A DNA stretch of 64,000 nucleotides from Mesotoga prima MesG1.Ag.4.2 (lineage in GTDB: Bacteria > Thermotogota > Thermotogae > Petrotogales > Kosmotogaceae): positions 1,488,001-1,552,000 of the forward strand of contig NC_017934.1 in the NCBI RefSeq assembly GCF_000147715.2, read 5' to 3'. The notes under the pieces were generated by a model that worked only from the letters and a program-made list of their open reading frames with translations, was not told where the DNA came from and did not search any database. How positions within the stretch are numbered: the first letter of the stretch is position 1; every line of letters begins with the position of its first letter. Both the position numbers and the translations under genes were made by a program. This document shows, one piece after another, positions 23,624-37,833 of this stretch.

Positions 23624-24523
23624 TTAGCTGAGCTTCACTATTTCCAGGGTTGAGATATCTATCTTTCTTCCCTCGAGACTGTGAAAATACCAGCAGCCAG
23701 TGTCTGCGGAGTCGTTTCCGATGTTGTAAATCAGGTCCCATTTTAGCCTCTCGGTAAGTTCGCCCTTTTCAGATGATCCCAGAAAGTTAAAGACAAACTT
23801 ATAACCTTTGTCTGGACTGACTCTGAGAAGTTTACCTGCCGGTTTATAAACAACGCCACCAAATGCACTATTAGCCCAGAAAGAAGCGTCAAGCGAGAGA
23901 TCTTCAAACCTATAGTCTTTGCCGGACTCTTTATCGATCCAATCTCTGGGGTATCGTCCGTTATTCACGAAAAACTCTTGAATTAGAGTTTTCAGTCCTT
24001 CGCTTATTTCATTGAAGGTAGATCCGAATTCCGTGAGCGGGGCGATGAAATTTTCGCCTAGCAGACTGTAGTAAATAGTTTCGGAGTCAAGTGATTCTCT
24101 TCCTAACCCACCGTCAAGAAAAGTGAAGTCGTCTATTCCAAAGGGAATTCCCTGTCTTGAATCGACTAGGACATCCGAGACAGTCTCGAAGTCTACACTG
24201 CGATTTGTGAATACGAAGTAGTTGTACTCGCCATCATCGTTCTTCTTCCATGCGGCGCCGAAGGAACGGCCATCAACATTTCTCCCGAGTTCGCCGATAA
24301 CTACGGGCACTCCCCCATCCAGGTAGATCTTACTTGAAAAAACACTAGAAAGCGTCTTAAGATCTTTTGCAACTGAAACGGCCTGTGATTTACGAAGCGT
24401 ATTAACCCCTATAGGTGCAATGACAGCGATAAGGCCGGCAAGTACCGCGAGAACAATAAGCATCTCGATAACAGAAAACCCTCGTCTTCTACTGCACATG
24501 AAACAACTCATAGTTAAGTTCAC
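23624..24523 (-). CDS. Prepilin-type pseudopilin, stand-alone
   Basis: 299 aa. An RRRG cleavage site is followed by FSVIEMLIVLAVLAGLIAVI, with Glu+5 and a long hydrophobic helix, the standard type IV prepilin N-terminus. The rest is a large soluble domain of about 260 aa, bigger than a major pilin, with no recognised fold; it includes a KDLKTLSSVFSSKIYLDGG helix as in GspG/PilE-like stems. The GTG at 24523 has GGGAG just upstream, and ATG 24511 or 24502 are alternatives. It is transcribed alone, 10 kb from the other pseudopilin operon. A TTGACA sits at about 24588-24593 on the minus strand without a clear -10 partner. Confidence 0.75.
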   Translation of the reverse strand: MNLTMSCFMCSRRRGFSVIEMLIVLAVLAGLIAVIAPIGVNTLRKSQAVSVAKDLKTLSSVFSSKIYLDGGVPVVIGELGRNVDGRSFGAAWKKNDDGEYNYFVFTNRSVDFETVSDVLVDSRQGIPFGIDDFTFLDGGLGRESLDSETIYYSLLGENFIAPLTEFGSTFNEISEGLKTLIQEFFVNNGRYPRDWIDKESGKDYRFEDLSLDASFWANSAFGGVVYKPAGKLLRVSPDKGYKFVFNFLGSSEKGELTERLKWDLIYNIGNDSADTGCWYFHSLEGRKIDISTLEIVKLS

Positions 24524-24735: not shown

Positions 24736-24763
24736 TTGAACTCAGCACTGTGTCCTATATAAT
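24736..24763 (+). promoter_or_regulatory. Promoter of the ROK-repressor / sugar operon
   Basis: TTGAAC (24736-24741), 16-nt spacer, perfect TATAAT (24758-24763). The start site would fall inside the adjacent palindrome, the classic position for autorepression. Confidence 0.75.
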
Positions 24764-24789
24764 ATTTAGTAAGAAACTATTACTAAATA
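24763..24789. promoter_or_regulatory. 27-bp inverted repeat, operator for the ROK repressor
   Basis: TATTTAGTAA and TTACTAAATA are perfect complements separated by 7 nt. The half-site TTTAGTAA resembles operators of ROK/XylR repressors (TTTGTTAA-like arms). It abuts the TATAAT box and precedes the ROK gene, so autoregulation is expected. Confidence 0.7.
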
Positions 24790-24818
24790 ATCAAATTGAG
24801 TTTCAGAGGTGCCCAAAA

Positions 24819-25970
24819 GTGATAACGAAGCCCGGTGATCTTAGGGAAAAGAACATGGGAAGAGTGATACAGCTTCTGCTCGCAAATCCGGATATTTCAA
24901 GAGTTGAAATCGCGAGGAAAACCGAACTCACCAAGACAACAATTTCTGCCATACTTGCCGCGCTTCTGGATCTGAATATTGTCGAAGAAACCCCCGGGTT
25001 GAAGACGGGTCTAGTTGGCAAAACACCTATCCCTATGAGAGTTAGGGGCGATGCTGCAGTAGCTATCGGAGTGAATCTTGCAAGGGGAAGCACGTCTGGA
25101 GTGGTCATGACAGCAAGTGGTGAGCTTCTCGAATCGGTGAGCAAAGAAGTCTCTAACCTGACTAGAGCAGATGCTACTGCCCATCTCTTTGAAGTCGTTC
25201 AGAGGTTGCTGAACAAATGTTTCAGAAATGGCATCGATGTCGATGCCATTGGTATTGGAGTTCCCTCTCCTCTGGACAAAGAGAAAGGTGTGATTTACGC
25301 CCCCTACGGTTTGAGCGACTGGAAGGATTTCCCGGTGGGAGAGATTACCCGCGAAAAGTTTGGTCTGCCCGTGTTTCTCGTCAATGATGCCGATGGCGCA
25401 GCCTTCGGAATGAAATGCTTTGGAAAATGCAGAGATATCAGATCGTTCATCAGTATGTATTTTGATGAAGGTGTTGGCGCAGGGATCATATTGAACGACG
25501 AGATCTACGGCGGAAGCTCCGGATATTCCGGTCAGATCAGTTACGCTCTTATCAAGAGCTTCTGCAACGGCCAAGTTGAGAATAGCCGGTTTAGTCTGGA
25601 TACGGTTGTCAGTGACTTGAACAAGGAAATCGGAGTCAGCTGCGGGAAAATCGATGATTTCTTGGACAGGAGATTCAACGGTGGGCAAAAAATGAATTCT
25701 GTACTGAGTAGAGTGGGTGACGAACTCGGTCGTATCGCAGCTCTTGTTTCAAACATTGTAGGTCCCGAAGCAGTTGTAGTCAATGGGCGGCTTCTAGATT
25801 TTGGAAAAGTTTTCTTCTCGGCGCTAAAGGATTCGTTTGAATCTAACCTTTTTTCGAGGGGCAGTGTTCAACTCATAAAAGGTTTTACGAATCAGTTTCG
25901 AGCATTCTCTACGGGGGCTGCGAGTTATGCGATTTTCAGTTACTTGATGGATAAAGTGCTTTCAAACTAG
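24819..25970 (+). CDS. ROK family transcriptional repressor (XylR/NagC-like)
   Basis: 383 aa. An N-terminal winged helix-turn-helix (ISRVEIARKTELTKTTISAI, about residues 25-44) is joined to a ROK domain: VAIGVNLARG, GIGVPSPLDKEKGVIYAPYG, VFLVNDADGAAFG and DEGVGAGIILNDEIYGG. The ROK zinc site (CxCGxxGC) and the GEIGH histidine are not seen; YSGQISYALI stands there, so sugar-kinase activity is unlikely and it is a sensor only. GTG 24819 has AGAGGTG 7 nt upstream; the frame extends upstream through the promoter and is not translated there. It heads the long sugar locus and probably represses it until a sugar or sugar phosphate binds. Confidence 0.88.
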   Translation: MITKPGDLREKNMGRVIQLLLANPDISRVEIARKTELTKTTISAILAALLDLNIVEETPGLKTGLVGKTPIPMRVRGDAAVAIGVNLARGSTSGVVMTASGELLESVSKEVSNLTRADATAHLFEVVQRLLNKCFRNGIDVDAIGIGVPSPLDKEKGVIYAPYGLSDWKDFPVGEITREKFGLPVFLVNDADGAAFGMKCFGKCRDIRSFISMYFDEGVGAGIILNDEIYGGSSGYSGQISYALIKSFCNGQVENSRFSLDTVVSDLNKEIGVSCGKIDDFLDRRFNGGQKMNSVLSRVGDELGRIAALVSNIVGPEAVVVNGRLLDFGKVFFSALKDSFESNLFSRGSVQLIKGFTNQFRAFSTGAASYAIFSYLMDKVLSN

Positions 25971-26000
25971 CACTGAAAACTGAGAAAAGGGGGAATTTAA

Positions 26001-27251
26001 GTGAAAAGGAAAGTAGTTCTTTCGCTGTTACTGGTAGTGCTTATCGGAGTCTCCTCGTTTGGCGTAGTTACTCTGAACTTCATCGAGGTTCTCACCAGTC
26101 CTGCAAGAACACAGGTAATCAAGGAGATAATTGCAGATTTCGAGGCTAAGAACCCTGATATCAAGATCAACCTGATATCTCCTCCATACGAGCAGGCGGA
26201 CCAAAGGGCAACTCTTATGCTCAACACGAACCAGCCACTCGACATTATCGAAGTCAGGGATTATACGGTGAAACAGTTCGTCAACAACGGAAAGCTAGAG
26301 AATCTCGAGAGCTACCTTGCCGGTTGGGAGCACAATGATACTCTTACCTTTGTCGCCAATCAGGCCGCAAGAACCGTCGATAACACGGCATTCATTGTTC
26401 CTCAGTTTTTCTTCATCAAGGGTTTATTCGTAAGAACCGATATTCTGGAGAAACTAGGCGTAAGTTACATTCCAAAGACTATGAGCGAGCTTGTTGAGCT
26501 ATGTATCGACATCACTGATCCCGAAAAGAACCAGTATGGATTCGGGTTCAGAGGAAAATCATGGGAGTTTAAATTCTCAGATCTTATAGCCACTTCTTTC
26601 CTAAGCGACATCGATGCAACCAATATTTATAAGACGAAATCCGGAGAAGCCTATTTCGATGACCCCAGAGCCATCGAGGGTATTAAAATGTATGTGAGGC
26701 TTTTCGAGGGTGGAGTCCCTGCAGACGGAATCAACTGGGGATTCAACGAACAGGTGAATGCCTTTGTATCGGGTATCACTCCGTTCCTCATTCAGGATCC
26801 GGATACGGTCGCCCTTGTGGATGAGATGCTCGGTAGAGAGTATTACACTGTGGTACCCATCCCGGTAGGTCCCTCCGGCAAGGCCTATATGGACTACGGA
26901 TTCAGCGGACTCGGAATACCCTCATATTCCAAGCACAAAGAACAGGCATGGGAGTTCATAAAGTATATTTCGAGCCCCGAGGTAAACGCATACTTCAGCA
27001 AGAGTTACGGTCCGCTTCCAATCCATTCTTCCACATATGAGAATGATCCATACTTCAGTTCCGGCGTCTATACGGCATGGAGTTACATGATGAGTCACCC
27101 GGAGAAGTACATCTTCGCGTCCTATCCTCTTGACTCCGAAAAGTGGCCGGGTTGGCCGGAGATTCACCAGCAGGACATGCAATCTCTGCTCCTCGGTGAT
27201 ACCACAGTCGAAGCCGTTGCCGCAAAGTGGGCCGAGTACTGGGAAGACTGA
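26001..27251 (+). CDS. ABC transporter sugar-binding protein
   Basis: 416 aa. A signal peptide (MKRK, hydrophobic core, end near SSFG) precedes an extracellular solute-binding protein of family 1: TLNFIEVLTSPARTQVIKEI, ADFEAKNPDIKINL, LDIIEVRDYTVKQFVNNGKL and the C-lobe AWEFIKYISSPEVNAYFSKS. No lipobox Cys is visible. The GTG start has an AG-rich GGGGGAA upstream. It is 30 nt past the ROK gene and ahead of two permeases; the hairpin after its stop may lift its level above that of the permeases. With GH38 downstream, a mannoside oligomer or glycoside is a sensible ligand, but that is inference. Confidence 0.88.
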   Translation: MKRKVVLSLLLVVLIGVSSFGVVTLNFIEVLTSPARTQVIKEIIADFEAKNPDIKINLISPPYEQADQRATLMLNTNQPLDIIEVRDYTVKQFVNNGKLENLESYLAGWEHNDTLTFVANQAARTVDNTAFIVPQFFFIKGLFVRTDILEKLGVSYIPKTMSELVELCIDITDPEKNQYGFGFRGKSWEFKFSDLIATSFLSDIDATNIYKTKSGEAYFDDPRAIEGIKMYVRLFEGGVPADGINWGFNEQVNAFVSGITPFLIQDPDTVALVDEMLGREYYTVVPIPVGPSGKAYMDYGFSGLGIPSYSKHKEQAWEFIKYISSPEVNAYFSKSYGPLPIHSSTYENDPYFSSGVYTAWSYMMSHPEKYIFASYPLDSEKWPGWPEIHQQDMQSLLLGDTTVEAVAAKWAEYWED

Positions 27252-27285
27252 TAAAAAACTGAAAGATACTGACTGATTGACGATT

Positions 27286-27332
27286 CGGCACGGCGCAGAG
27301 ACAGTTCGAGATTTGCCCGCCGTGCCGTTTTT
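27286..27332 (+). terminator. Intercistronic hairpin with T-run (attenuating terminator)
   Basis: Perfect 10-bp arms CGGCACGGCG and CGCCGTGCCG are followed by TTTTTC. Being inside the operon between the binding-protein and permease genes, it is probably a partial terminator or a 3'-end stabiliser that keeps binding-protein mRNA in excess. Confidence 0.7.
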
Positions 27333-27370
27333 CTAGAGCAGGCAGAGAGATGTTCTGAGAGGTGTTGATT

Positions 27371-28255
27371 TTGAGAAAGAATTTCTGGAAGTTTTTCATA
27401 ATGATGATTCCGGCTTTCATCCTTCTTATAGTCTTTACTTACACACCTATTATCCGTGGCGGGGTTATGGCGTTTCAGCGCTATAACATGTTTGACCTCT
27501 CTGATACTGGATTCATTGGGTTTGGTAACTTCAAAGCGATCATAACCGACAGAAATTTCGATTTCGTAAGAATACTGATCAACACACTTGTCTGGGTCTT
27601 TTTCTCTTTGATTTTCCAGTTCGGCCTTGGCTTCGGACTGGCACTACTAATGAGAAAACCCTTTAAGGGGAGAGGAATCTACTCGTCTCTCGTTTTCTAT
27701 CCATGGGCGGTGTCGGGATTTGCCATAGGTCTCATTTGGGCGTGGATGTTCAACGGTCAGTTTGGGATAATCAATGACATTCTGGTAAGAGTTGGGATTA
27801 TTAGTAACCCAATAGGTTTTCTGTCAGATCCTAAGTTTGCCATGATGTCGGTGATCATCGCAAATGTTTGGTACGGAATTCCTTACTTCGCAATCATGTT
27901 GCTTGCCGCACTCCAGTCCGTTCCGAATGAGCTGTATGAGGCTTCGAGAATAGATGGGGCAAATAGGTTTAAGCAGTTGTTCAAGATCACGATACCGTAC
28001 ATTAGGCCGACAATCGTTAGCACGGTCCTGCTCAGGACGATGTGGATAATGAATTTCCCGGAGATAATCTATGGAATGACCGGCGGTGGGCCGGCCAATT
28101 CAACTCAGATACTGGCGACACACATGATAAACAGAATCTATCAGTTCTATGACTACGGTCAGGGAGCCGCGATAGGATTCATAATCATGTCCATGTTGTT
28201 ACTGTATGCGATTGTTTTCCTGAATATCTCCTCCCGTAAGGAGGTAACTGTATGA
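27371..28255 (+). CDS. ABC sugar transporter permease (MalF-type, UgpA-like)
   Basis: 294 aa, six membrane helices. The coupling motif EAA...G appears as EASRIDGANRFKQLFKITIP (about residue 196), the contact for the ATPase. The N-terminal MRKNFWKFF start is short, as in UgpA-type subunits. TTG 27371 follows GAGAGGTG at correct spacing; the GTG at 27362 lies inside that site. It overlaps the next permease by 4 nt. No ATP-binding subunit is encoded in the locus; Thermotogae-type sugar importers often borrow a shared MsmK/UgpC-like ATPase. Confidence 0.9.
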   Translation: MRKNFWKFFIMMIPAFILLIVFTYTPIIRGGVMAFQRYNMFDLSDTGFIGFGNFKAIITDRNFDFVRILINTLVWVFFSLIFQFGLGFGLALLMRKPFKGRGIYSSLVFYPWAVSGFAIGLIWAWMFNGQFGIINDILVRVGIISNPIGFLSDPKFAMMSVIIANVWYGIPYFAIMLLAALQSVPNELYEASRIDGANRFKQLFKITIPYIRPTIVSTVLLRTMWIMNFPEIIYGMTGGGPANSTQILATHMINRIYQFYDYGQGAAIGFIIMSMLLLYAIVFLNISSRKEVTV

Positions 28256-29091
28256 AGACAGTCATGAAGGTGCTCGGTAAGGTCTTCAAAGTCATCGCTC
28301 TAGGGCTGTATCTGATTGCGGCTCTACTACCTCTTTACTGGGTTGTTGTTACATCCCTCAAGGGCCCCAGGGAGATCTACACATTTCCTTTGAAATACCT
28401 CCCTTCAAAGCTTTCCTTCGAAAGCTATTCGAAGTTGTTTGGCTTTGCTAACTTCGGAGTTTACTTTCGAAACAGCGCAATAGTGGCGCTTGCGGCTGCT
28501 TTAGCCGCCATGCTAATATCTATGTTCAGTGGATATGCACTGTCGCGAATTCGAGCGAAGAGATTCAGAAACGGTACCTTGTTAGCCATGTATTTCACTC
28601 AGATGGTTCCTCCGTTCATTCTGATGGCTCCTCTGTTTGTCATGCTGGCAAACTACGGTATGACCGATAGGCTTTCCACGTTGTTTATCCTATACGTAAC
28701 CATGGTAATTGCCTTCAGCACGATCATGTCAAAGAGTTTCTTCGACAGGATACCGGTTTCACTTGAAGAAGCTGCCGTGATCGATGGTTGCAATACTTTG
28801 CAGGCGCTCTTCAAAGTGGTATTTCCGCTAACGAGGCCCGGACTTGCAGCGATTTTCAGTTTCGCCTTCGTGAATATCTGGAATGAGCTTTTTCTGGCAT
28901 CGATGTTCATCTTCTCCGATGAAAAGATGACTGTCCCGGTAGCGTTGAACTCGTTCATTTCTAAGGCCGGGATAAGCTGGGACGTTTTGAGCGCGGGACT
29001 TGTTGTTTCTCTCTTACCAACTATGATAGTTTTCGCCTTTGCACAGAGATATATAATAGCCGGACTTACCGAAGGCGCTGTCAAAGGATAA
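28252..29091 (+). CDS. ABC sugar transporter permease (MalG-type, UgpE-like)
   Basis: 279 aa, six membrane helices. The EAA loop is EEAAVIDGCNTLQALFKVVF (about residues 171-190) and the C-terminus ends QRYIIAGLTEGAVKG, the MalG-family ending. ATG 28252 has AAGGAGGT upstream and overlaps the previous stop. It pairs with the upstream permease to form the importer channel. Confidence 0.92.
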   Translation: MKTVMKVLGKVFKVIALGLYLIAALLPLYWVVVTSLKGPREIYTFPLKYLPSKLSFESYSKLFGFANFGVYFRNSAIVALAAALAAMLISMFSGYALSRIRAKRFRNGTLLAMYFTQMVPPFILMAPLFVMLANYGMTDRLSTLFILYVTMVIAFSTIMSKSFFDRIPVSLEEAAVIDGCNTLQALFKVVFPLTRPGLAAIFSFAFVNIWNELFLASMFIFSDEKMTVPVALNSFISKAGISWDVLSAGLVVSLLPTMIVFAFAQRYIIAGLTEGAVKG

Positions 29092-29110
29092 TGATTGGAG
29101 GATCTTGAGG

Positions 29111-30265
29111 ATGGAAAAGAAGTACATAACTGAGATTTTGCATCATCTGGGTGAAGACGATCTACCTTGTGGGGCGGTAAATCCTCCCATATTTCAAACT
29201 TCGATCTTCTCTTTCAAGGGCTTTGACGAGTTCTCAACGGCCCTTTCAGACGAGACGAACCATTTTCTGTACACCAGAGGAAACAACCCTACAGTAAATA
29301 TTCTCGAAGAGAAACTGGCTGCGCTGGAGCACGCGGAGAGGGCAAAGCTTTTCGGATCTGGAGTTGCGGCAATCGTTTCGAGTATTTCCGCTTTCTTGAA
29401 GAGCGGTGATCACATAGTAACTGTCAAGGACTGCTACAGCTGGACATCCACCTATGTAACCCAGTATCTGGCCAGATTTGGAGTGGAACATACCTATGTG
29501 GAAGGTAACGATGTGAATGAGATCGAGGCAGCTCTTAAACCCAACACGAAGATTATCTATCTCGAAAGTCCCACTACTTTCACTTTTAAGCTGCAAGACT
29601 TGACGGAAGTATCTTCACTGGCCAAGATGAGGGGTGTGAAGACGATAATAGACAACACCTGGGCGACTCCCATCTACCAGAATCCGATCGATTTTGGAAT
29701 AGACCTGGTAGTCCATTCCGCATCCAAGTATCTGGGCGGAAACAGCGATGTCGTAGGAGGAGTTGTAGCAGGGTCCGATGAGGATGTCAGAAGAATATTC
29801 GAAAAAGAGTTTCTCAACACTGGAGCCGTTCCCGATCCCTTTGCTGCCTGGCTTATTCTGAGGGGGATCCGGACTCTGCATATCCGGATGCCCGTGCATT
29901 TCCAGAACGCTATGGAGCTCAGCAGAAGGCTACAGAAGAGTGAAGCCGTCGAATCCGTTTTGTATCCGATGCTCGAGAGCTCGGAGCAATATGCGCTTGC
30001 CAAGAAGCAGATGAGGGGAGGATCGGGCCTCTTCTCGTTTAAGCTTAAGACCCGGGATATCGACAGGATAAAGAAATTCGTGAACTCCCTGAGATTTTTC
30101 AGGAGAGCCGTCAGCTGGGGCGGATATGAAAGTCTGATCTCTCCGTACGCCGTTTCTCACAGGGACCCCGGTGACAATGTATCTCTGATAAGGATTCATG
30201 CCGGTCTAGAAGAAATTGAAGTCCTTTCGGAGGATCTCGATAGAGCCATGAAAGAGCTCGGCTGA
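29111..30265 (+). CDS. Cys/Met-metabolism PLP-dependent lyase (cystathionine gamma-synthase family)
   Basis: 384 aa. The PLP lysine sits in VVHSASKYLGGNSDVVGG (about residue 203) and the phosphate-binding GSGVAAIVSSI is near residue 81. Other family blocks are YTRGNNPT, YLESPTTFTF and IIDNTWATPI, giving the fold of cystathionine gamma-synthase, cystathionine gamma-lyase and methionine gamma-lyase. It would cleave or form C-S bonds in sulfur amino acids, in the cytosol. Its location between ABC permeases and an alpha-mannosidase is unexpected and hints at a sulfur-containing substrate or simple insertion. ATG 29111 follows GGAGG; TTG 29105 is possible. The exact reaction is not resolvable. Confidence 0.85.
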   Translation: MEKKYITEILHHLGEDDLPCGAVNPPIFQTSIFSFKGFDEFSTALSDETNHFLYTRGNNPTVNILEEKLAALEHAERAKLFGSGVAAIVSSISAFLKSGDHIVTVKDCYSWTSTYVTQYLARFGVEHTYVEGNDVNEIEAALKPNTKIIYLESPTTFTFKLQDLTEVSSLAKMRGVKTIIDNTWATPIYQNPIDFGIDLVVHSASKYLGGNSDVVGGVVAGSDEDVRRIFEKEFLNTGAVPDPFAAWLILRGIRTLHIRMPVHFQNAMELSRRLQKSEAVESVLYPMLESSEQYALAKKQMRGGSGLFSFKLKTRDIDRIKKFVNSLRFFRRAVSWGGYESLISPYAVSHRDPGDNVSLIRIHAGLEEIEVLSEDLDRAMKELG

Positions 30266-30326
30266 GCTGGAATTTCGTTAATCGAATACGCGGAAAGATA
30301 ACTTGTGAAAGACTGGAGGGGGCACC

Positions 30327-33300
30327 GTGTATCATTCTAGAAATGAGTACTGTACAAGGCTTAGAAAGGAACTAGCAGAGCTTTTCCCGTATACTTTGAT
30401 CGAGAGAAAAGCGATTGGCGGATGGAGATTCAGTGATTTCGGCGCGGAAAGACCGCCCGAGAAAGGCTGGAAGGAGATCTCCGTTGGCTACCGGTGGGAT
30501 GAGACAAAATTCCCGGTGTGGTTCAGAACCTCCATAGAGTCAGAAAAACCTGAAGACGGAGAGAGGCTCTTCCTCAAAGCGGTTCCCGGAGGAGAAAGTC
30601 TGGTCTTGATTGACGGCCGTTCTTTTGGTGAGATAAATGTATATCATCAGTTTCTGGACCTAACGGAGTTTGCTGATGGGAAGAGCCACGTAATTGATAT
30701 ACAGACAGTCCCAAAGGGGCTGCTCGGTACTCACTTGCCCGATCCGGTCTTTGAAGGCGCCGAACTGCTCCTTCAAGATAGATTCGTATCAAGCACATAT
30801 CTCGATTTTACGGTCGCGATCGAGGTTCTTGAGGCAACCAGAGATGAATTCCTCTCAGAGAAGCTATTGAAAATCATAAGCGACTGCCTCTCCGAGATCG
30901 AGCTTCCTAGATCTACTGATCAGTACTTTAAGACGGCCCCTGACAATCCGACTCTTTTCGGGCACCATACATATGGAAGCGTAAACGAGATCTGGCAATC
31001 CCCAAGGTTTGAGAAGTCCGAAGGAAACAGACTGACCGACAATTATCGCCACACGGTCATGAAGGCCCGTGAGAAACTCGCGAGTAATATAGCCAGCTTG
31101 AGAGACGAGCATAGTGCGGTGGGCACCGTTCATGTTACCGGTCAGTCACACATTGACTATGCCTGGCTTTGGCCGATAGATGAGACCAAGAGGAAGATAA
31201 GAAGGACCTTTGCCAATGCTGTGAGAATGATGGAGAAGTTTCCGGAATTCGTTTATCTTCAGTCTTCGGCTCAGATGTACATGGATTTGAAGGAGAACGA
31301 TCGCGATCTCTTCGAGAGGGTAAAGGAGAAGATTTCGCAGGGCAAATGGGAAACGATCGGCGGAACGTGGGTTGAGAGCGACTGCACTATTTCCAGCGCC
31401 GAATCACTTGCCAGGCAGTTTCTATACGGCCAGATGTTCTTCGAAAAGGAGTTCGGTATGAGATCTTCTGTGGCATGGCTTCCTGATGTCTTTGGCTTCT
31501 CCTGGACACTTCCTCAAATCATGAAGGAAGCGGGAATAGAATACTTTTCGACGACCAAGCTGAAGTGGAATGAGAAGAATCGTTTCCCTCTCGACCTCTT
31601 CTTGTGGAGGGGGTTGGATGGCAGTGAAATAGTCTGCCATTTCTTCGATAACCCTCTCGGGGGTTACAACGGAATGCTTAATCCAGAAGCGATTCTTGGC
31701 ACATGGGAGAACTTCCAGGATAAAAGAGTTTACGATAAGACAATAACCACCTTTGGCTACGGCGACGGCGGCGGCGGTCCGACAGACGACATGGTCGAAT
31801 ACTATGAAAGGCTCAAAGAGTACCCTGGCATGCCGAAACTCGAAATGGCCCCCTTGACGAAGTATTTCAAGGAGTTGCCTTCCACTCTGGAACTGCCCGT
31901 TTGGGACGACGAGCTGTACTTCGAGCTGCACAGAGGAACATATACTAGCCAGGCAAGAACAAAGAAGTTGCATAAGGATGCGGAAGACGCTCTATACAGA
32001 TTGGAAGTCGTCGGTGCAATAGTCTGCAGTAGAGAAAAGTATCCACTCGAAAGAGCCAGGAAACTTTGGGCGACACTTCTTCACAACGAGTTTCACGATA
32101 TTCTTCCCGGTTCATCAATAAATGAAGCTCACATCCAGGCCGAAAATGAACTTGGCCAGTTAATCAGAGAGGCAAATCAAATAACCGGTACTCTACTTGA
32201 CCCTGCCGGCGATGGAAACCCTTCATTCAAAACCGTAATCAATGTTGGGTCTTATCCTCAAAAAGCAATATTTATTGACGATAATGAAATGAATCTCTAT
32301 GACGGGACGGGCAAGGTTCTGGCAAGCCAGAGAACATATGACGGAAGATTTGTTTACAGCTATGATCATGATATTCAACCCTTTTCGAGCGAGGTTTTCG
32401 AGTGTTTCGGTGGGAAGGTCGAGGAACACGCTATGGAAAGCGATCCCGTCCTTGAAAACAGCTTTTTGCGTGTTGAAGTAAACTCCGATGGAAGTGTTTC
32501 CGTTTTTGATAAGCAACTTCAAAAAGAAGTAACCTCCGGCCCAGGGAACTGTCTCTACGTATACAAGGACATTCCAGTTGCTTGGGATGCATGGGATATC
32601 GATCACGATTACAAGATATCTGGCAAGAGACTGACCGCCCTCGACGTGAGGACGATTGAGAGCGGTCCGGTGAGGAAGGTTGTTCAGGCGAGATACGAGT
32701 ATGAAGGAAGCTCAATAGTGCAGAGATACATTTTAAGTGCCTCTTCAAGGAGACTGGATATTGAAAACGATATCGACTGGCACACTAGAAGGACTCTTCT
32801 CAAGGCTCACTTTCCCGTCAGCATTCTTTCTAGAGAAGTAAGATGTGATCTCTCCGCGGGATACTCAAGGAGAAGTACGAGGGTTCGAAACACCTTTGAA
32901 GATGCCCGATTCGAATTTCCGGCTCATCGCTGGGTCGAGCTGGAAGAGCCAGGTCTTGCCGTAGCTATTCTCAACGACGGCAAGTATGGTCATTCCTGCA
33001 ACGGTTCGGATATATCTCTTACACTTCTTAGATCGCCCATTTATCCCGATTTCTTTGCAGATGAGGGAAGGCATCGTTTCACCTACTCGTTGTTCTCTCA
33101 TGATGGAGAGGATGCTGTCAGGGTGGTCGAGGAAGCCGAGGGCCTTAACAAGGAGATGATCAAGATTAACGGAAAGATAGATCTTGGAACAGCCGTGATT
33201 CAAATCTCAGCGAGAAACCTCAAGGTACTTGCCTTGAAGCATTCCGAGAAGAGCGGTTACGTACTCCGGCTCGCTGAAGTCGAAGGGAGGCGGGGAGTAG

Positions 33301-33443
33301 CAAAGATCAGTACTGCACTGGCCTTTGAACGATGCTGGATTTCGAACGTTCTCGAGGATAAAGTGTGCGAGCTCCCGGTAATTGACGGTAAGGTCGAGCT
33401 TCCCTACAGGCAATTCGGTCTCCACACGCTCAGGTTCGAATGA
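30327..33443 (+). CDS. Alpha-mannosidase, glycoside hydrolase family 38
   Basis: 1038 aa, usual length for bacterial GH38. The domain order is an N-terminal beta region, the catalytic (beta/alpha)7 barrel with GQSHIDYAWLWPIDETKRK (near residue 270) holding the first metal ligands, WLPDVFGFSWTLPQI with the nucleophile Asp (about 386), LHNEFHDILPGSS (near 585) with the other metal ligand, then the helical and beta-sandwich C-terminal parts. It has no signal peptide, so it acts on imported mannosides, releasing mannose (or an analogous sugar). The GTG has GGAGG upstream. The operon neighbours are the importer and a sugar kinase. Confidence 0.92.
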   Translation: MYHSRNEYCTRLRKELAELFPYTLIERKAIGGWRFSDFGAERPPEKGWKEISVGYRWDETKFPVWFRTSIESEKPEDGERLFLKAVPGGESLVLIDGRSFGEINVYHQFLDLTEFADGKSHVIDIQTVPKGLLGTHLPDPVFEGAELLLQDRFVSSTYLDFTVAIEVLEATRDEFLSEKLLKIISDCLSEIELPRSTDQYFKTAPDNPTLFGHHTYGSVNEIWQSPRFEKSEGNRLTDNYRHTVMKAREKLASNIASLRDEHSAVGTVHVTGQSHIDYAWLWPIDETKRKIRRTFANAVRMMEKFPEFVYLQSSAQMYMDLKENDRDLFERVKEKISQGKWETIGGTWVESDCTISSAESLARQFLYGQMFFEKEFGMRSSVAWLPDVFGFSWTLPQIMKEAGIEYFSTTKLKWNEKNRFPLDLFLWRGLDGSEIVCHFFDNPLGGYNGMLNPEAILGTWENFQDKRVYDKTITTFGYGDGGGGPTDDMVEYYERLKEYPGMPKLEMAPLTKYFKELPSTLELPVWDDELYFELHRGTYTSQARTKKLHKDAEDALYRLEVVGAIVCSREKYPLERARKLWATLLHNEFHDILPGSSINEAHIQAENELGQLIREANQITGTLLDPAGDGNPSFKTVINVGSYPQKAIFIDDNEMNLYDGTGKVLASQRTYDGRFVYSYDHDIQPFSSEVFECFGGKVEEHAMESDPVLENSFLRVEVNSDGSVSVFDKQLQKEVTSGPGNCLYVYKDIPVAWDAWDIDHDYKISGKRLTALDVRTIESGPVRKVVQARYEYEGSSIVQRYILSASSRRLDIENDIDWHTRRTLLKAHFPVSILSREVRCDLSAGYSRRSTRVRNTFEDARFEFPAHRWVELEEPGLAVAILNDGKYGHSCNGSDISLTLLRSPIYPDFFADEGRHRFTYSLFSHDGEDAVRVVEEAEGLNKEMIKINGKIDLGTAVIQISARNLKVLALKHSEKSGYVLRLAEVEGRRGVAKISTALAFERCWISNVLEDKVCELPVIDGKVELPYRQFGLHTLRFE

Positions 33444-33465
33444 GGCGAGATCATGAAGGAAAGCG

Positions 33466-34395
33466 ATGGAGTTGATTGAAGAAAGAACCCTCCTTGGCAT
33501 AGATGTGGGAGGTACGAAAACGGCCGTCGTTCTGGGAGATGAAGCTCTCAACATCCTCGCAAGAGCAGAGTTCCCGACCGAACCAGAGCTCGGTTTTCAG
33601 AGCTTCATCAAGAGGCTCTCTTCAGAAATCATCGGTCTTACAGGAGATTTGATTCCATCCAGGGTGGGAATATCCGTCGGAGGTCCTATGGATTGTAAAA
33701 CGGGTACTTTGTTCAACCCTCCTCACCTTCGATGGGGAACCGTTAACATAGTTCAGCCGTTGGTGGAGCGTTTTGGTTTCTCGATAACGATCGAACACGA
33801 CGGAAGAGCCGGTGCACTTGCCGAAGGCATTCTGGGGGCCGGCAGGGGCTTTCTAAACATTGTCTTTCTGACTCTGGGAACCGGCCTGGGCGCAGGCATA
33901 ATTATCAATGGGAATATTTATAGTGGATCTACGGGATTGGCTGGAGAGGTTGGTCATATGAGAGTAGCCGTGGATGGTCCGTCGCTCTACGGAAAGAACG
34001 GTTCATGGGAGTCTTTTTGTGGTGGTACGGGAATTTCACTATATGCGCATTACAGATTTCCTGAACGGTTTAAGCGGGGAACGACTACTCAGGATATTTC
34101 ACACCTTGCACTGAAGAAGGATCCTAACGCCATCACCGTCCTTGAGGAAAGCGGAGCATACTTCGGGAAAGGTCTCGCCGTGCTGCTGGATATTCTCGAC
34201 CCTGACAGGATAATTCTCGGTAACCTTGCCTGGCGCCTTCCGAAAATCTGGCTTGAGGCTGCTCTAAAGATGGCAGCGGAGGAAGCGCTTATCGGCGATG
34301 AGGCGAGAAATCGGGTCGTTATTACGGAGCTCAAAGACAGGATTGGTGACTATGCCGCTTTGATTGTGGCAAGCGGAATGGGAAGAAGGAGATAG
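33466..34395 (+). CDS. ROK family sugar kinase
   Basis: 309 aa. The phosphate-1 motif is GIDVGGTKTAVV (residues 11-22). The catalytic Asp is in ITIEHDGRAGALAEG, the phosphate-2 stretch is TLGTGLGAGIIING and the sugar-binding Glu/His pair is in LAGEVGHM. The ROK zinc motif CxCGxxGC is replaced by LYGKNGSWESFCGG, so structural zinc is probably absent. Kinases of this type phosphorylate glucose, mannose, fructose, N-acetylmannosamine or allose at C6. Next to GH38 a mannokinase role is the simplest reading. The ATG has AAGGA upstream and the gene lies 23 nt past the mannosidase. Confidence 0.85.
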   Translation: MELIEERTLLGIDVGGTKTAVVLGDEALNILARAEFPTEPELGFQSFIKRLSSEIIGLTGDLIPSRVGISVGGPMDCKTGTLFNPPHLRWGTVNIVQPLVERFGFSITIEHDGRAGALAEGILGAGRGFLNIVFLTLGTGLGAGIIINGNIYSGSTGLAGEVGHMRVAVDGPSLYGKNGSWESFCGGTGISLYAHYRFPERFKRGTTTQDISHLALKKDPNAITVLEESGAYFGKGLAVLLDILDPDRIILGNLAWRLPKIWLEAALKMAAEEALIGDEARNRVVITELKDRIGDYAALIVASGMGRRR

Positions 34396-34398
34396 GAG

Positions 34399-34980
34399 AT
34401 GGAGTTTAACCGTGTAGCGCGTATGGCTTTCGAGGAGAGCATGCGAGTAAAGAGTGAGTTTATCGACAAGTATGAAGAGCTGATATACGAGGTTGCGCGC
34501 AAAATAGCCAGAAGAACGGGGAATGGCGGAACCGTCTACCTGATGGGGAACGGTGGTAGTGCGGCAGATGCAGCGCATCTAGCGGCTGAACTCGTAGGAA
34601 GGTTATATCTGGAAAGAAGTCCGATCAGGGCAGTATCGCTACCCAGTAACGACTCGATTCTCACGGAAATCCCAAACGACTTTGGATATGACCAGGTCTT
34701 TTCCAGACAGCTCGAAGCCTTTCTGGCAGAAGAGGATATTGTGATTGCAATTAGCACTAGCGGAAAATCGACAAACATTTTAAGGGGACTGAAAGTGGCG
34801 ATAGAGAGACGTTCGCTGCGAGTTGGATTAACGGGGAAGACTGGCGGCGAGATGCCTGGCTTATGCGACTATCTGTTCAAAGTAGACTCTACTGACATTC
34901 CCAGGATTCAGGAAACGCACATAACTCTCGGTCACGTATTGTGTCAGCTTATCGAGGCGATTACCGTCGGAAGAGAGTAG
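34399..34980 (+). CDS. gmhA: D-sedoheptulose-7-phosphate isomerase (GmhA-type SIS protein)
   Basis: 193 aa, the length of GmhA. The SIS motifs are YLMGNGGSAADAAHLAAELVGR, with the Glu that binds zinc/substrate, DFGYDQVFSRQLEA, STSGKSTNI (phosphate-binding) and THITLGHVLCQLIE, with the conserved His. GmhA turns sedoheptulose-7-phosphate into D-glycero-D-manno-heptose-7-phosphate, the first step of heptose synthesis. Here it is followed by an unrecognised gene and a HldE-kinase/HAD fusion, so the chemistry may continue to the kinase and phosphatase steps. Spacing to the kinase upstream is 3 nt with AAGGAG. Confidence 0.85.
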   Translation: MEFNRVARMAFEESMRVKSEFIDKYEELIYEVARKIARRTGNGGTVYLMGNGGSAADAAHLAAELVGRLYLERSPIRAVSLPSNDSILTEIPNDFGYDQVFSRQLEAFLAEEDIVIAISTSGKSTNILRGLKVAIERRSLRVGLTGKTGGEMPGLCDYLFKVDSTDIPRIQETHITLGHVLCQLIEAITVGRE

Positions 34981-35011
34981 ATATAGCTTAGTGAGAATGG
35001 AAGGTGCGGCG

Positions 35012-36013
35012 ATGAGATACGAGGGTGAGTACACAGTTTTCGATACTTCTAATGTGAAGGTGTATTCTTTGTTGGACAGACCTAGTGAGGTGTCGATATC
35101 GGATCTGATAGACATAAAGGAAATAGTAAATGAGTCTGATGGCTTTAGGTCACCAGAACTGGAAGAGCTTTCCGGGAAGGTGCTTGAGGCAAAAGAGAAG
35201 GGTTTACCCGTTATTGTTTTCTGCGGTGCGCACGTAATTAAGAACGGAATGGGACCGCTGCTTTCGTCGCTTATGCATGAAAAGATCATTACTGCCCTTG
35301 GGGTGAACGGGGCTTTTACGATACATGATTTTGAACTGGCTTACTGTGGAAGGACCTCGGAAAGTATTCCGAATGCTCTTTCTAGAGGGCTTTTCGGCTT
35401 CGCAGAAGAGACAAATAAGTATATTAACAACGCACTGATTCATGGAAATAAGCTCTTTCTTGGATATGGAGAGTCGATGGGCAGACTTCTATCCGGAGAA
35501 GCGTTTCCAGAAAAGATTGACTGCATGTACCCGGAGGTCTCAGTCCAGTACAATGCGTATCGGGATAGTATACCGCTTTGTGTTCACTCAGCAATGGGAA
35601 CCGATATATACCATATGACACCATACTTCGACGGTGAGTCTCTTGGAGGATGCTCGGCAAGAGACTTTCTCATATTCGCGAATGAAATTTCAAAGCTTGA
35701 AAAGGGCGGGGTGTGTATAGTGATAGGCTCTGCAGTTATTGGTGCTGAAGTCGTTCTGAAGGCAATATCGATGGCGGCAAATGTTGGAAGACCTCCAAAG
35801 TTAATCACAACGGCCAGCTTTGATATAAGAGATGCAGATCTAGATGAGGCTTCGAAAAATAACAAGGAAGTTGCTTCTTATTACTTCAGAGATGTGAAAT
35901 CGATAGTAACGAGAATCCCGAATGCTTTTGGTGGAAAAGGTTATTACATAAAGGGAAATCATAAAGAGACTCTGCCATCGTTCTACAGATTAATTATGAA
36001 GGGAATGCCATGA
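35012..36013 (+). CDS. Conserved protein of unknown function in a heptose-type cluster
   Basis: 333 aa from ATG 35012 (AAGGTG 5 nt upstream; GTG 34991 and ATG 34997 are longer options). It has no signal peptide or membrane segment. Recognisable stretches are VIVFCGAHVIKNGMGPLLSS, TALGVNGAFTIHDFELAYCG, LCVHSAMGTDIYHMTPYFDG and KGGVCIVIGSAVIGAEVVL. The alternation of hydrophobic strands with Gly-rich turns suggests a Rossmann-like nucleotide-binding fold distantly like deoxyhypusine synthase, but I do not claim that family. Its ends touch gmhA (31 nt) and the kinase-phosphatase gene (4-nt overlap), so it should act on the same sugar. Possible roles are a redox or lyase step, or a regulatory subunit. 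Confidence 0.7.
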   Translation: MRYEGEYTVFDTSNVKVYSLLDRPSEVSISDLIDIKEIVNESDGFRSPELEELSGKVLEAKEKGLPVIVFCGAHVIKNGMGPLLSSLMHEKIITALGVNGAFTIHDFELAYCGRTSESIPNALSRGLFGFAEETNKYINNALIHGNKLFLGYGESMGRLLSGEAFPEKIDCMYPEVSVQYNAYRDSIPLCVHSAMGTDIYHMTPYFDGESLGGCSARDFLIFANEISKLEKGGVCIVIGSAVIGAEVVLKAISMAANVGRPPKLITTASFDIRDADLDEASKNNKEVASYYFRDVKSIVTRIPNAFGGKGYYIKGNHKETLPSFYRLIMKGMP

Positions 36014-37833
36014 ATCAAGCTTGGGAAAGGAAAGCTAGGGTGCTCGTAGTCGGGGACGTCTTCCTGGATAAGTATGTCTATTACGATCCCAATCTGTCGA
36101 GGCCGAGCCTTGAAACCGGTCTTATGACGATCACGGGAGTGAGAGAAGAGTACTCTCCCGGAGCGGCCGGTAATGTGGCTAAGAATCTTGCCACGCTTGA
36201 TGGGAAAGTGATTCTCCTCGCCCCAGTGGGACTCGACGCTAGGGCTGTCGAACTGGAGAGGGAGCTCAATCGTTATGGGATTTGCACGCAGTTCCTTGTG
36301 AAGTCGGAAAGACAGGTTACCCCTCTGTACATGAAATTCATCAATGCTTTGACGGGGAAAGAGGATCTGCCAAGGCTTGATATTCCCCCGGCCGGCCTAG
36401 TCGAAGAAAACAGGCGGAAGATTGTCGAAATGTTAGAATTTCTCGTTCCTCAGGTTGATGCCATAATTGTCCAAGATCAGTCTGAAATTCCTGGAACAGG
36501 CTGTATAGACGAAGAGGTAAGAAAACAACTGATTGTGTTGCGAAAGCTATTCCCGGAGAAATTATTCGTCGCGGATTCGAGAAACTGGCTCGAGACCTTT
36601 TCAGGTTTTCTGTTGAAGCCCAACCTTGGTGAATTTTCTCAGATCCTTGAAAGAGCAGGCCTTGTAGATGACAATAACAGATGTCCTGATCAAATACTGG
36701 TTCAGAAACATCTCGCTGAGGTTTCAAAACTGGTGAGTTCACCCGTTGTAGTAACCGCCAGCGAGGATGGCTCGTTCTGCTTTAAGAACGGTATTCTGAA
36801 TCGAATATTCAATCTCGAAGGAGAAGTGAGGGATGTCTGCGGAGCTGGAGATGCATTCATTGCGGCCTTGACTTTGGAGTTGTGCGTTAAGAAAGTCTCG
36901 TTATTGGACTCAGCCAAGACGGCCACAAAGGCCGCTTCGCTCTGTGTTTCTCAGAAAGGAACGGGGGTGTTGTTGAGAGAATCAATCTCAAAGCTTGAAG
37001 AACCTAATGCTTATAGAGTCGAAGATCCGTCTATCTTCAGGAATACCCGAAGGTTGCCTGGGAAGACAAGGTATGTTCTCTTTGATTTCGACGGTACCAT
37101 TTCCCTTCTAAGGGAGGGATGGCAGCCGATTATGAGAGACCTCATGATTCATTTTATTACCGGAGATAGAGAGATTGAAGAAGAGACTCGTAAAAAGATA
37201 AAAGAAGAAGTGAATGACTTCATAGCCGAAACTACCGGACTCCAGACGATTCTCCAGATGGAAGGCCTTCAAAGACTGGTGATCGACTACGGCTTTGTTT
37301 CTGAGAAAGAGATTCTTAATCCTCATCAGTACAAGCAGGTCTATACTGGGCATCTGAAAGAGATAGTCAGAAAGCGGATCAATGAGGATTCAAGAGACAG
37401 GTACCTGGTTTGCGGTTCACTGGAATTTGTAAAATCACTTCATGAAAGGGGAATTACTCTTCTTGTTGCTTCAGGAACCGATCTGGAAGACGTTATAGAA
37501 GAGTCGAAATATCTGGGAGTTTATGACTTCATGGGCGGAGGTGTCTATGGAGCTTTGAGCAGCTTCGAGGAGTACTCGAAGAAGAAGGTAATACAGAGAC
37601 TACTGACGGATAGGAAATTGCAACCCGACGAGCTGATTGTCATAGGAGATGGTCCGGTTGAAATTAGCGTGGGAAAAGAAGCCGGAGCCTTCACCATAGG
37701 GGTGGCTTCAGACGAAAGGAAAGGTTTCGGCTGGAACAAAGAGAAGTTCAATAGACTTAAGAGAGCCGGCGCCGACGTTCTTATTCCCGACTTTTCCCCG
37801 CTTTCTGCACTCATAGAGCTTATCTTTCCGTAA
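36010..37833 (+). CDS. HldE-like PfkB heptose-phosphate kinase fused to a HAD phosphatase
   Basis: 607 aa. Residues 1 to about 325 are a PfkB/ribokinase-fold kinase of the HldE/RfaE type: VLVVGDVFLDKYVYYDPN, EEYSPGAAGNVAKNLATL, FLLKPNLGEF and the catalytic VCGAGDAFIAALTLEL (near 277). From about 350 a HAD phosphatase follows: LFDFDGTISLLREG (motif I, near 359), LLVASGTD (motif II) and VIGDGPVEISVGKEAGA (motif IV, near 546), with a long helical cap between. Normal HldE instead carries a nucleotidyltransferase, which is absent. The enzyme would phosphorylate a heptose-7-phosphate at C1 and/or remove a phosphate. It overlaps the unknown gene by 4 nt. Confidence 0.8.
   Translation: MNQAWERKARVLVVGDVFLDKYVYYDPNLSRPSLETGLMTITGVREEYSPGAAGNVAKNLATLDGKVILLAPVGLDARAVELERELNRYGICTQFLVKSERQVTPLYMKFINALTGKEDLPRLDIPPAGLVEENRRKIVEMLEFLVPQVDAIIVQDQSEIPGTGCIDEEVRKQLIVLRKLFPEKLFVADSRNWLETFSGFLLKPNLGEFSQILERAGLVDDNNRCPDQILVQKHLAEVSKLVSSPVVVTASEDGSFCFKNGILNRIFNLEGEVRDVCGAGDAFIAALTLELCVKKVSLLDSAKTATKAASLCVSQKGTGVLLRESISKLEEPNAYRVEDPSIFRNTRRLPGKTRYVLFDFDGTISLLREGWQPIMRDLMIHFITGDREIEEETRKKIKEEVNDFIAETTGLQTILQMEGLQRLVIDYGFVSEKEILNPHQYKQVYTGHLKEIVRKRINEDSRDRYLVCGSLEFVKSLHERGITLLVASGTDLEDVIEESKYLGVYDFMGGGVYGALSSFEEYSKKKVIQRLLTDRKLQPDELIVIGDGPVEISVGKEAGAFTIGVASDERKGFGWNKEKFNRLKRAGADVLIPDFSPLSALIELIFP

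Follow-up and report, generated by a model that had tools for sequence, protein, structure and literature searches.

Why would a bacterial sugar-uptake operon carry enzymes of the kind that make the heptose of lipopolysaccharide (LPS)? The question is posed by a 64,000-nucleotide stretch of Mesotoga prima MesG1.Ag.4.2, a mesophilic member of the phylum Thermotogota (contig NC_017934.1, positions 1,488,001 to 1,552,000; hereafter the window, in which all positions are counted unless another locus is named), where ten genes combine an ATP-binding cassette (ABC) sugar importer, a GH38 alpha-mannosidase, a GmhA-type isomerase, a kinase fused to a phosphatase domain and a 333-amino-acid (333-aa) protein of the GSU2086 family. 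Our firmest new result concerns this last family, which swaps with the heptose 6-epimerase HldD among the Omnitrophota, together with the NAD+-enzyme fold that is predicted for it. For the locus as a whole we propose, tentatively and at somewhat less than even confidence, a substrate-induced sugar-utilisation operon holding a module derived from heptose biosynthesis, which would recycle manno-heptose via sedoheptulose 7-phosphate.

The GSU2086 family has the predicted fold of NAD+-dependent enzymes

Gene identities were taken from hidden Markov model searches (Pfam and curated models with cut-offs). The 333-aa protein had been called unrecognised in the original prediction, a reading of the sequence by itself; this stands in that no Pfam family, short-chain dehydrogenase/reductases (SDRs) included, matches it at 1e-3, but the protein does belong to an already curated family (NF052581; 305.7 bits against a cut-off of 250), and one that proves to be a companion of the heptose pathway (see below). 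The literature searched offered no functional role for the family. An AlphaFold2 model built with 31 homologues (pLDDT 94.8, pTM 0.93) gave as its best Foldseek match in the PDB deoxyhypusine synthase (E 7e-10, probability 1.00, TM about 0.5), followed by AgrE with ornithine and NAD+ (6e-8) and an LOR/SDH protein (3e-7), and a profile search independently retrieved ArgZ/AgrE (3.6e-7 to 3.8e-6). All three are NAD+-dependent enzymes that oxidise and then re-reduce their substrate. The model thus predicts that the GSU2086-family protein is built on the NAD+-dependent deoxyhypusine-synthase/AgrE fold, and from it we infer that GSU2086 proteins bind NAD+. Two narrower identities were rejected: deoxyhypusine synthase proper (that is, an IF5A-modifying enzyme), given the lack of a Pfam match at 1e-3 and the bacterial heptose context, and an HldD-type SDR (TIGR02197), given that neither the SDR nor any other Pfam family matches and that the fold is different; what we claim is a functional replacement.

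GSU2086 and HldD swap in the Omnitrophota

The swap was examined in a fixed set of 117 Omnitrophota genomes (one phylum, mostly metagenome-derived), of which 36 were positive for GSU2086, 68 for HldD and 107 each for HldC and GmhA. Only 3 of these genomes have both GSU2086 and HldD, whereas 33 have GSU2086 alone, 65 HldD alone and 16 neither (Fisher p 9e-14), and the exclusion persists among HldC-positive genomes (p 4e-13). Mere shared ancestry is not supported as its cause: on a quick rpoB tree, which covers 100 of the 117 genomes, 12 independent pairs differ in GSU2086, and HldD differs the opposite way in about 10 of them and the same way in none (median p 0.002). No such pattern is seen for GmhA and HldC (both are missing from the same ten genomes, and each is present in all the others), and GSU2086 was rejected as a GmhA substitute in this phylum, GmhA being present with or without it. 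One genome (G090) holds an orphan GSU2086-like gene of 372 aa (L196:7363-8481), with GmhA, HldC and HldD not detected in that genome.

HldD catalyses the sole NAD(P)-dependent step of the ADP-heptose pathway. Since GSU2086 and HldD swap across the tree, with GmhA and HldC present regardless, the simplest reading, which we infer from gene content, is that GSU2086 proteins replace HldD.

The family accompanies heptose genes in several phyla

The original prediction had suggested comparing the neighbourhoods of GmhA, the 333-aa family and PfkB-HAD fusions across genomes. A scan of 84,980 genomes yielded 48 GSU2086 loci, and in these the family tracks heptose genes in several phyla. In Geobacter sulfurreducens, GSU2086 is flanked by hldE (GSU2085) and gmhA (GSU2087), and transposon-sequencing defects on electrodes are similar for the three genes (gmhA -3.7, GSU2086 -3.2, hldE -3.1) (PMC5585712). 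The family tree has two deep, supported clades. Members of the first (Omnitrophota, Woesearchaeota, AUK107, Eisenbacteria and Coatesbacteria) lie mostly near heptose or LPS genes, with neighbours that include a bona fide HldA (399.8 bits, cut-off 345), KdsB, KdsA, CTP synthase, LptC and heptosyltransferase-like genes. Omnitrophota loci have the order GSU2086-HldA-KdsB-KdsA, and a second copy in this phylum has an HldC::PfkB fusion and GmhA next to it and, nearby, an open reading frame (ORF) that is transketolase-like by sequence. A Woesearchaeota contig encodes an ARMT1-phosphatase::HldC-like::GSU2086 triple fusion beside HldE and transketolase-like ORFs, and the Lentisphaerales add a further setting that ties the family to the heptose pathway. 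These comparisons support the view that the GSU2086 family is a genuine heptose-pathway companion, in five independent settings. The Woesearchaeota genes (L051:1585-8139; HldE pieces and the triple fusion) also make up a compact cluster for heptose nucleotides in the metagenome-assembled genome (MAG) of an archaeon.

The second clade, to which the window protein belongs, contains all the loci with kinase::HAD fusions, from Thermotogota, Planctomycetota, Latescibacterota, Atribacteria, Aerophobetes and an Actinomycetota MAG. Across several Thermotogota lineages the block of ROK kinase, GmhA, GSU2086 and kinase recurs, with the ROK kinase gene immediately 5' of gmhA. The module lies near ABC or major facilitator superfamily transporters, ROK or LacI regulators, or glycosidases in Mesotoga and at L015, L018, L019, L032, L060 and L067; at L019 a dihydrodipicolinate synthase-type aldolase gene overlaps the kinase gene.

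Other genes recur beside the module. An AGE-family gene (cellobiose 2-epimerase/mannose-isomerase-like) lies 5' of GSU2086-kinase::HAD at L022, L025, L030, L035 and other Planctomycetota loci; the idea that it simply replaces GmhA there is weakened by L030, which holds both. UroD-family genes (corrinoid-type methyltransferase-like) stand beside the module in four phyla (L068:1610-7525, L022:3494-4627, L042:4148-10449 and L060:4975-6156), at L068 together with a gene for a B12-binding protein and one that by sequence encodes a RACo-like protein, which could point to O-demethylation of methylated sugars. At two Phycisphaerae loci (L047:2310-4280, L049:2990-4970) a free HAD lies beside GSU2086 and is followed by a 371-372-aa protein, and a 371-aa ORF follows the kinase::HAD fusion at L022:6588-7700; the two such proteins tested (from L047 and L022) match no Pfam family.

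A conserved operon with heptose-type enzymes

The ten genes are co-directional (24819-37833, + strand) and separated by small gaps or joined by 4-bp overlaps (Table 1). Because an identical order is found in four other Mesotoga genomes (G001, G004, G007 and G009), five with the window genome, the arrangement is not a matter of chance. The evidence supports a single conserved operon that would place a sugar importer, an alpha-mannosidase and three heptose-pathway-type enzymes under a dedicated repressor. Same-direction genes with tiny gaps behind one promoter and operator had indeed been predicted, and the ORFs, the palindrome and promoter-like site described below and the five-genome synteny bear this out. 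The presumed lyase dependent on pyridoxal phosphate (PLP) had to be relabelled, as it passes the cut-off of an L-alanine/L-glutamate racemase model and has an Ala/Glu racemase as its best PDB match. A prepilin-like protein gene (23624-24523, minus strand) adjoins the operon divergently; G005 and G009 carry one resembling it at about this location.

Table 1. Predicted genes and control elements of the Mesotoga prima operon
Feature	Position	Strand	Evidence
Sigma-70-like promoter site, TTGAAC-16-TATAAT	24736..24763	+	Consensus scan 10/12; adjoins palindrome
Putative ROK-repressor operator, perfect 27-bp palindrome, TATTTAGTAA-N7-TTACTAAATA	24763-24789	.	0 expected in shuffles
ROK-family transcriptional repressor (winged helix-turn-helix + ROK)	24819..25970	+	PF00480 89 bits; HTH_24
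ABC importer substrate-binding protein, SBP (SBP_bac_1)	26001..27251	+	PF01547 121.6 bits
Stem-loop and T-run, CGGCACGGCG...CGCCGTGCCG-TTTTT	27286..27332	+	Kept in four aligned genomes
MalF-like sugar ABC permease (BPD_transp_1)	27362..28255	+	PF00528; MalF model 107 bits, far under cut-off
MalG-like sugar ABC permease (BPD_transp_1)	28252..29091	+	PF00528; 4-bp overlap with MalF-like gene
Cys/Met-PLP enzyme, L-alanine/L-glutamate racemase type	29105..30265	+	NF041088 695 bits (cut-off 629); PDB 9iz5 E 4e-111
GH38 alpha-mannosidase, Ams1/Man2C1 type, 1038 aa	30327..33443	+	Four GH38 Pfam domains; PDB Ams1 E 1e-118
ROK sugar kinase	33466..34395	+	PF00480 167 bits
GmhA-type phosphoheptose isomerase (SIS protein)	34399..34980	+	TIGR00441 (gmhA) 159.8 bits (equivalog cut-off 209); PDB phosphoheptose isomerases E 1.6e-43
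GSU2086-family protein, 333 aa	35012..36013 (mechanical ORF from 34991)	+	NF052581 305.7 bits (cut-off 250)
HldA-like PfkB kinase::HAD phosphatase-domain fusion	36010..37833	+	RfaE-domain-I model 141 bits (cut-off 345); Foldseek HldA 4e8y

The GmhA-type protein aligns with solved phosphoheptose isomerases across the NGGSAAD, H..AE..GR, STSGKS and IQE.H...GH stretches, which we take to hold the known catalytic residues of those enzymes. The top structural matches of the kinase domain are all HldA (4e8y, E 4e-23, TMt 0.86), with ribokinase at 4e-18. The original assignment of a GmhA-type isomerase and an HldE-like kinase::HAD is thereby upheld by the nearest solved structures, which supports heptose-type identities for the isomerase and the kinase; their scores below the curated cut-offs are as expected of a module that would have diverged from ADP-heptose synthesis. 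Since the GAGD kinase motif and the HAD motifs (DxDGT, S-G-T-D, K and GDGPVE) are kept in 17 fusions, activity is to be expected of both domains. The HAD domain is of the capped IA type, matching HAD_2/subfamily IA models and capped IA structures and scoring 21 bits against HAD-IIIA (cut-off 44.6). The cluster thus contains no GmhB-type (HAD-IIIA) phosphatase, and the GmhB-like identity once suggested for this domain has to be given up.

A missing nucleotidyltransferase had also been predicted, and none is evident in the window genome (2,975,953 bases, two contigs): the three CTP_transf_like matches resemble CoaD, NadD and TmcAL by N-terminal sequence and were rejected as HldC candidates. The heptosyltransferase family PF01075 (Glyco_transf_9) has no match in this genome either, so that neither of the two activities that, if encoded elsewhere, would have completed an ADP-heptose pathway with these genes was found. 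HldC was likewise not found in any of the six module-bearing genomes checked outside the Planctomycetota and Latescibacterota (three Thermotogota, Atribacteria, Actinomycetota and Aerophobetes).

A probable dedicated repressor and a divisible operon

The palindrome begins at exactly the base, 24763, that had been given as the start of the locus. Four other Mesotoga genomes keep its arms 5' of the repressor gene, and no copy there differs by more than one change. It is the only copy in the genome with fewer than three mismatches; sites with three are less frequent than for a reversed control pattern, so further operator copies were rejected. Given this uniqueness, the ROK protein appears to be a repressor dedicated to this operon, and the palindrome is presumed to be its binding site. 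The gene most likely starts at the conserved GTG at 24819, because the ORF start at 24750 would place the operator within the gene. The TATATAATA of the promoter-like site is kept in five Mesotoga genomes; as the number of such sites in the region is no higher than chance, the promoter call rests on position and conservation. A local ROK repressor with a predicted palindromic operator at the promoter is the pattern of a ROK-regulated sugar catabolic operon. In the 110-bp gap between the SBP gene and the first permease gene, a GC-rich inverted repeat and the T5 after it are conserved, and a stem-loop after an SBP gene is the usual arrangement for extra SBP expression.

The GSU2086 gene is absent from 5 of the 10 Mesotoga genomes. 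In one genome, G005 (locus L178, 3741-8745), the PLP and GH38 genes are retained at 90% identity (the equivalent of 28951-33436) with an intact downstream flank, and the repressor, the SBP, the first permease, most of the second permease and the block from ROK kinase through GmhA and GSU2086 to kinase::HAD are all gone. The joint absence suggests that the importer and repressor genes were lost together with the heptose-type block, and that GH38 and the PLP enzyme are separable from both. The mannosidase is an Ams1/Man2C1-type GH38; its tie to the heptose genes is weaker than originally thought, as GH38 persists with the PLP gene in G005 and occurs in 56 of 61 relatives in the phylum, which rules it out as a marker of the heptose-type module.

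Proposed function and its alternatives

Under our proposal, an imported alpha-(hepto)mannoside would be hydrolysed by the cytoplasmic-type GH38, and the ROK kinase would phosphorylate the released manno-heptose at O7. The GSU2086 protein would stand in for HldD and invert C6 (L-glycero to D-glycero), its bound NAD+ transiently oxidising the sugar, and GmhA would convert D-glycero-D-manno-heptose 7-phosphate into sedoheptulose 7-phosphate, to be passed to the pentose phosphate pathway. The kinase::HAD protein may shift phosphate between the anomeric and primary positions, like HldA plus GmhB, and this is the weakest link. The likely benefit would be the recycling of LPS-type heptose from Gram-negative neighbours. 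Consumption of a sugar is favoured because HldC is missing and because transporters, sugar regulators and glycosidases recur beside the module; the Thermotogota module thus probably consumes or interconverts manno-heptose (or a related sugar) via sedoheptulose 7-phosphate, and a catabolic heptose route is our reasoned proposal from the gene content. Of the heptose and mannoside reading advanced originally, the heptose-type enzymes and the conserved operon with its dedicated repressor are retained, and the link of GH38 and the PLP enzyme to heptose is loosened. The literature searched contained no heptose catabolic pathway, and nothing useful was found there on Mesotoga mannosidases, HldD-less heptose pathways or Geobacter LPS heptose. 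We regard as doubtful the more ambitious joint claim that GSU2086 is a second, unrelated class of heptose 6-epimerase on a deoxyhypusine-synthase fold and that Thermotogota use it in degrading LPS-derived manno-heptose to sedoheptulose 7-phosphate.

Several observations weigh against the proposal. A kinase and a phosphatase in one protein look biosynthetic (heptose 7-phosphate to heptose 1-phosphate), and salvage does not need them; the GmhA and kinase scores lie under curated cut-offs, so that the substrate may have drifted; and the AGE-type epimerase that usually accompanies the Planctomycetota module hints at a different or wider substrate range. GH38 is common in relatives without the module, the double loss was seen once, in G005, and the HldD exclusion comes from one phylum of mostly metagenome-derived genomes and from a clade other than that of the Thermotogota.

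The first of these points leads to a biosynthetic alternative, which we consider unlikely: GmhA, the kinase, the HAD domain and GSU2086 (setting C6) would make heptose 1-phosphate, an unrecognised nucleotidyltransferase would activate it for an envelope glycan, and co-transcription with the importer would serve supply or regulation. The enzyme set is that of ADP-heptose synthesis minus HldC, kinase plus phosphatase follows biosynthetic logic, GSU2086 relatives outside the module sit in biosynthetic clusters, and the Woesearchaeota fusion order phosphatase-HldC-GSU2086 is pathway order. This alternative is at odds with the lack of HldC in all six genomes checked and of any evident HldC or PF01075 heptosyltransferase in the window genome, and with the make-up of the operons, at whose core are importers, glycosidases and sugar repressors.

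A shift to C6 sugar phosphates, by which the GmhA-, GSU2086- and HldA-like proteins would serve an unusual catabolism or interconversion of mannose or another aldohexose behind a mannoside importer, seems rather improbable to us. GmhA and the kinase do score well under heptose-specific cut-offs, GH38 and the ROK kinase fit mannosides, and the Planctomycetota module is paired with an AGE-family protein nearest to cellobiose 2-epimerase and mannose isomerase models; however, mannose-6-phosphate isomerase and glycolysis would already suffice for such sugars, the active-site motifs of GmhA are intact, and GSU2086 outside the module tracks heptose genes.

It is also quite unlikely, in our judgement, that GSU2086 is no epimerase and serves the heptose pathway in some other NAD+-dependent capacity or in a structural one, with the HldD exclusion marking organisms that keep D,D-heptose. 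Epimerisation is backed by co-occurrence and fold alone, and a few Omnitrophota genomes have both or neither of GSU2086 and HldD, yet about 10 of the 12 independent gains or losses match an opposite change in HldD, which a passive marker of D,D-heptose would not need. That the operon genes are unrelated neighbours with no common pathway, as the retention of GH38 and the PLP gene alone in G005 might suggest, is very improbable in view of the five-genome synteny with a unique conserved operator and the recurrence of the ROK-GmhA-GSU2086-kinase block in several Thermotogota lineages.

If the proposal of GSU2086-dependent heptose recycling is correct, a conserved family that has no name and occurs in many phyla would acquire a function, and the ability of many LPS-making bacteria to do without HldD would be explained. 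Sugar epimerisation would be added to the chemistry of a fold known from enzymes of polyamines and amino acids, and the proposal would point to a way of breaking down heptose, which is very abundant in LPS.

Relation to known systems

Deoxyhypusine synthase, the C-terminal domain of AgrE/ArgZ and LOR/SDH share with the GSU2086 protein the predicted fold and an AxxxHDxE stretch; they are remote from it (12-18% identity, TM about 0.5), and they act on amino acids or polyamines, whereas the genomic context of GSU2086 is one of sugar phosphates. The Geobacter protein encoded among GSU2085-2087 is of the same sequence family as the window protein and likewise lies beside gmhA and a heptose kinase, whereas the window protein falls in the deep clade that carries kinase::HAD fusions. 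With ADP-heptose biosynthesis (GmhA, HldA/HldE, GmhB, HldC and HldD) the window operon has in common the GmhA-type isomerase, the HldA-like kinase and a phosphatase domain, and it is with the HldD of this pathway that the GSU2086 family swaps in the Omnitrophota; in contrast to that pathway, the window genome is without HldC and a PF01075 heptosyltransferase, the phosphatase domain, a capped HAD, forms one protein with the kinase, and the enzymes are encoded in an operon that also holds importer genes and a ROK repressor gene. The ROK-regulated sugar-uptake operons of Thermotogota share the ROK repressor, the maltose-type ABC importer, a glycosidase and the ROK kinase with the window operon, which is set apart from them by its heptose-derived block.

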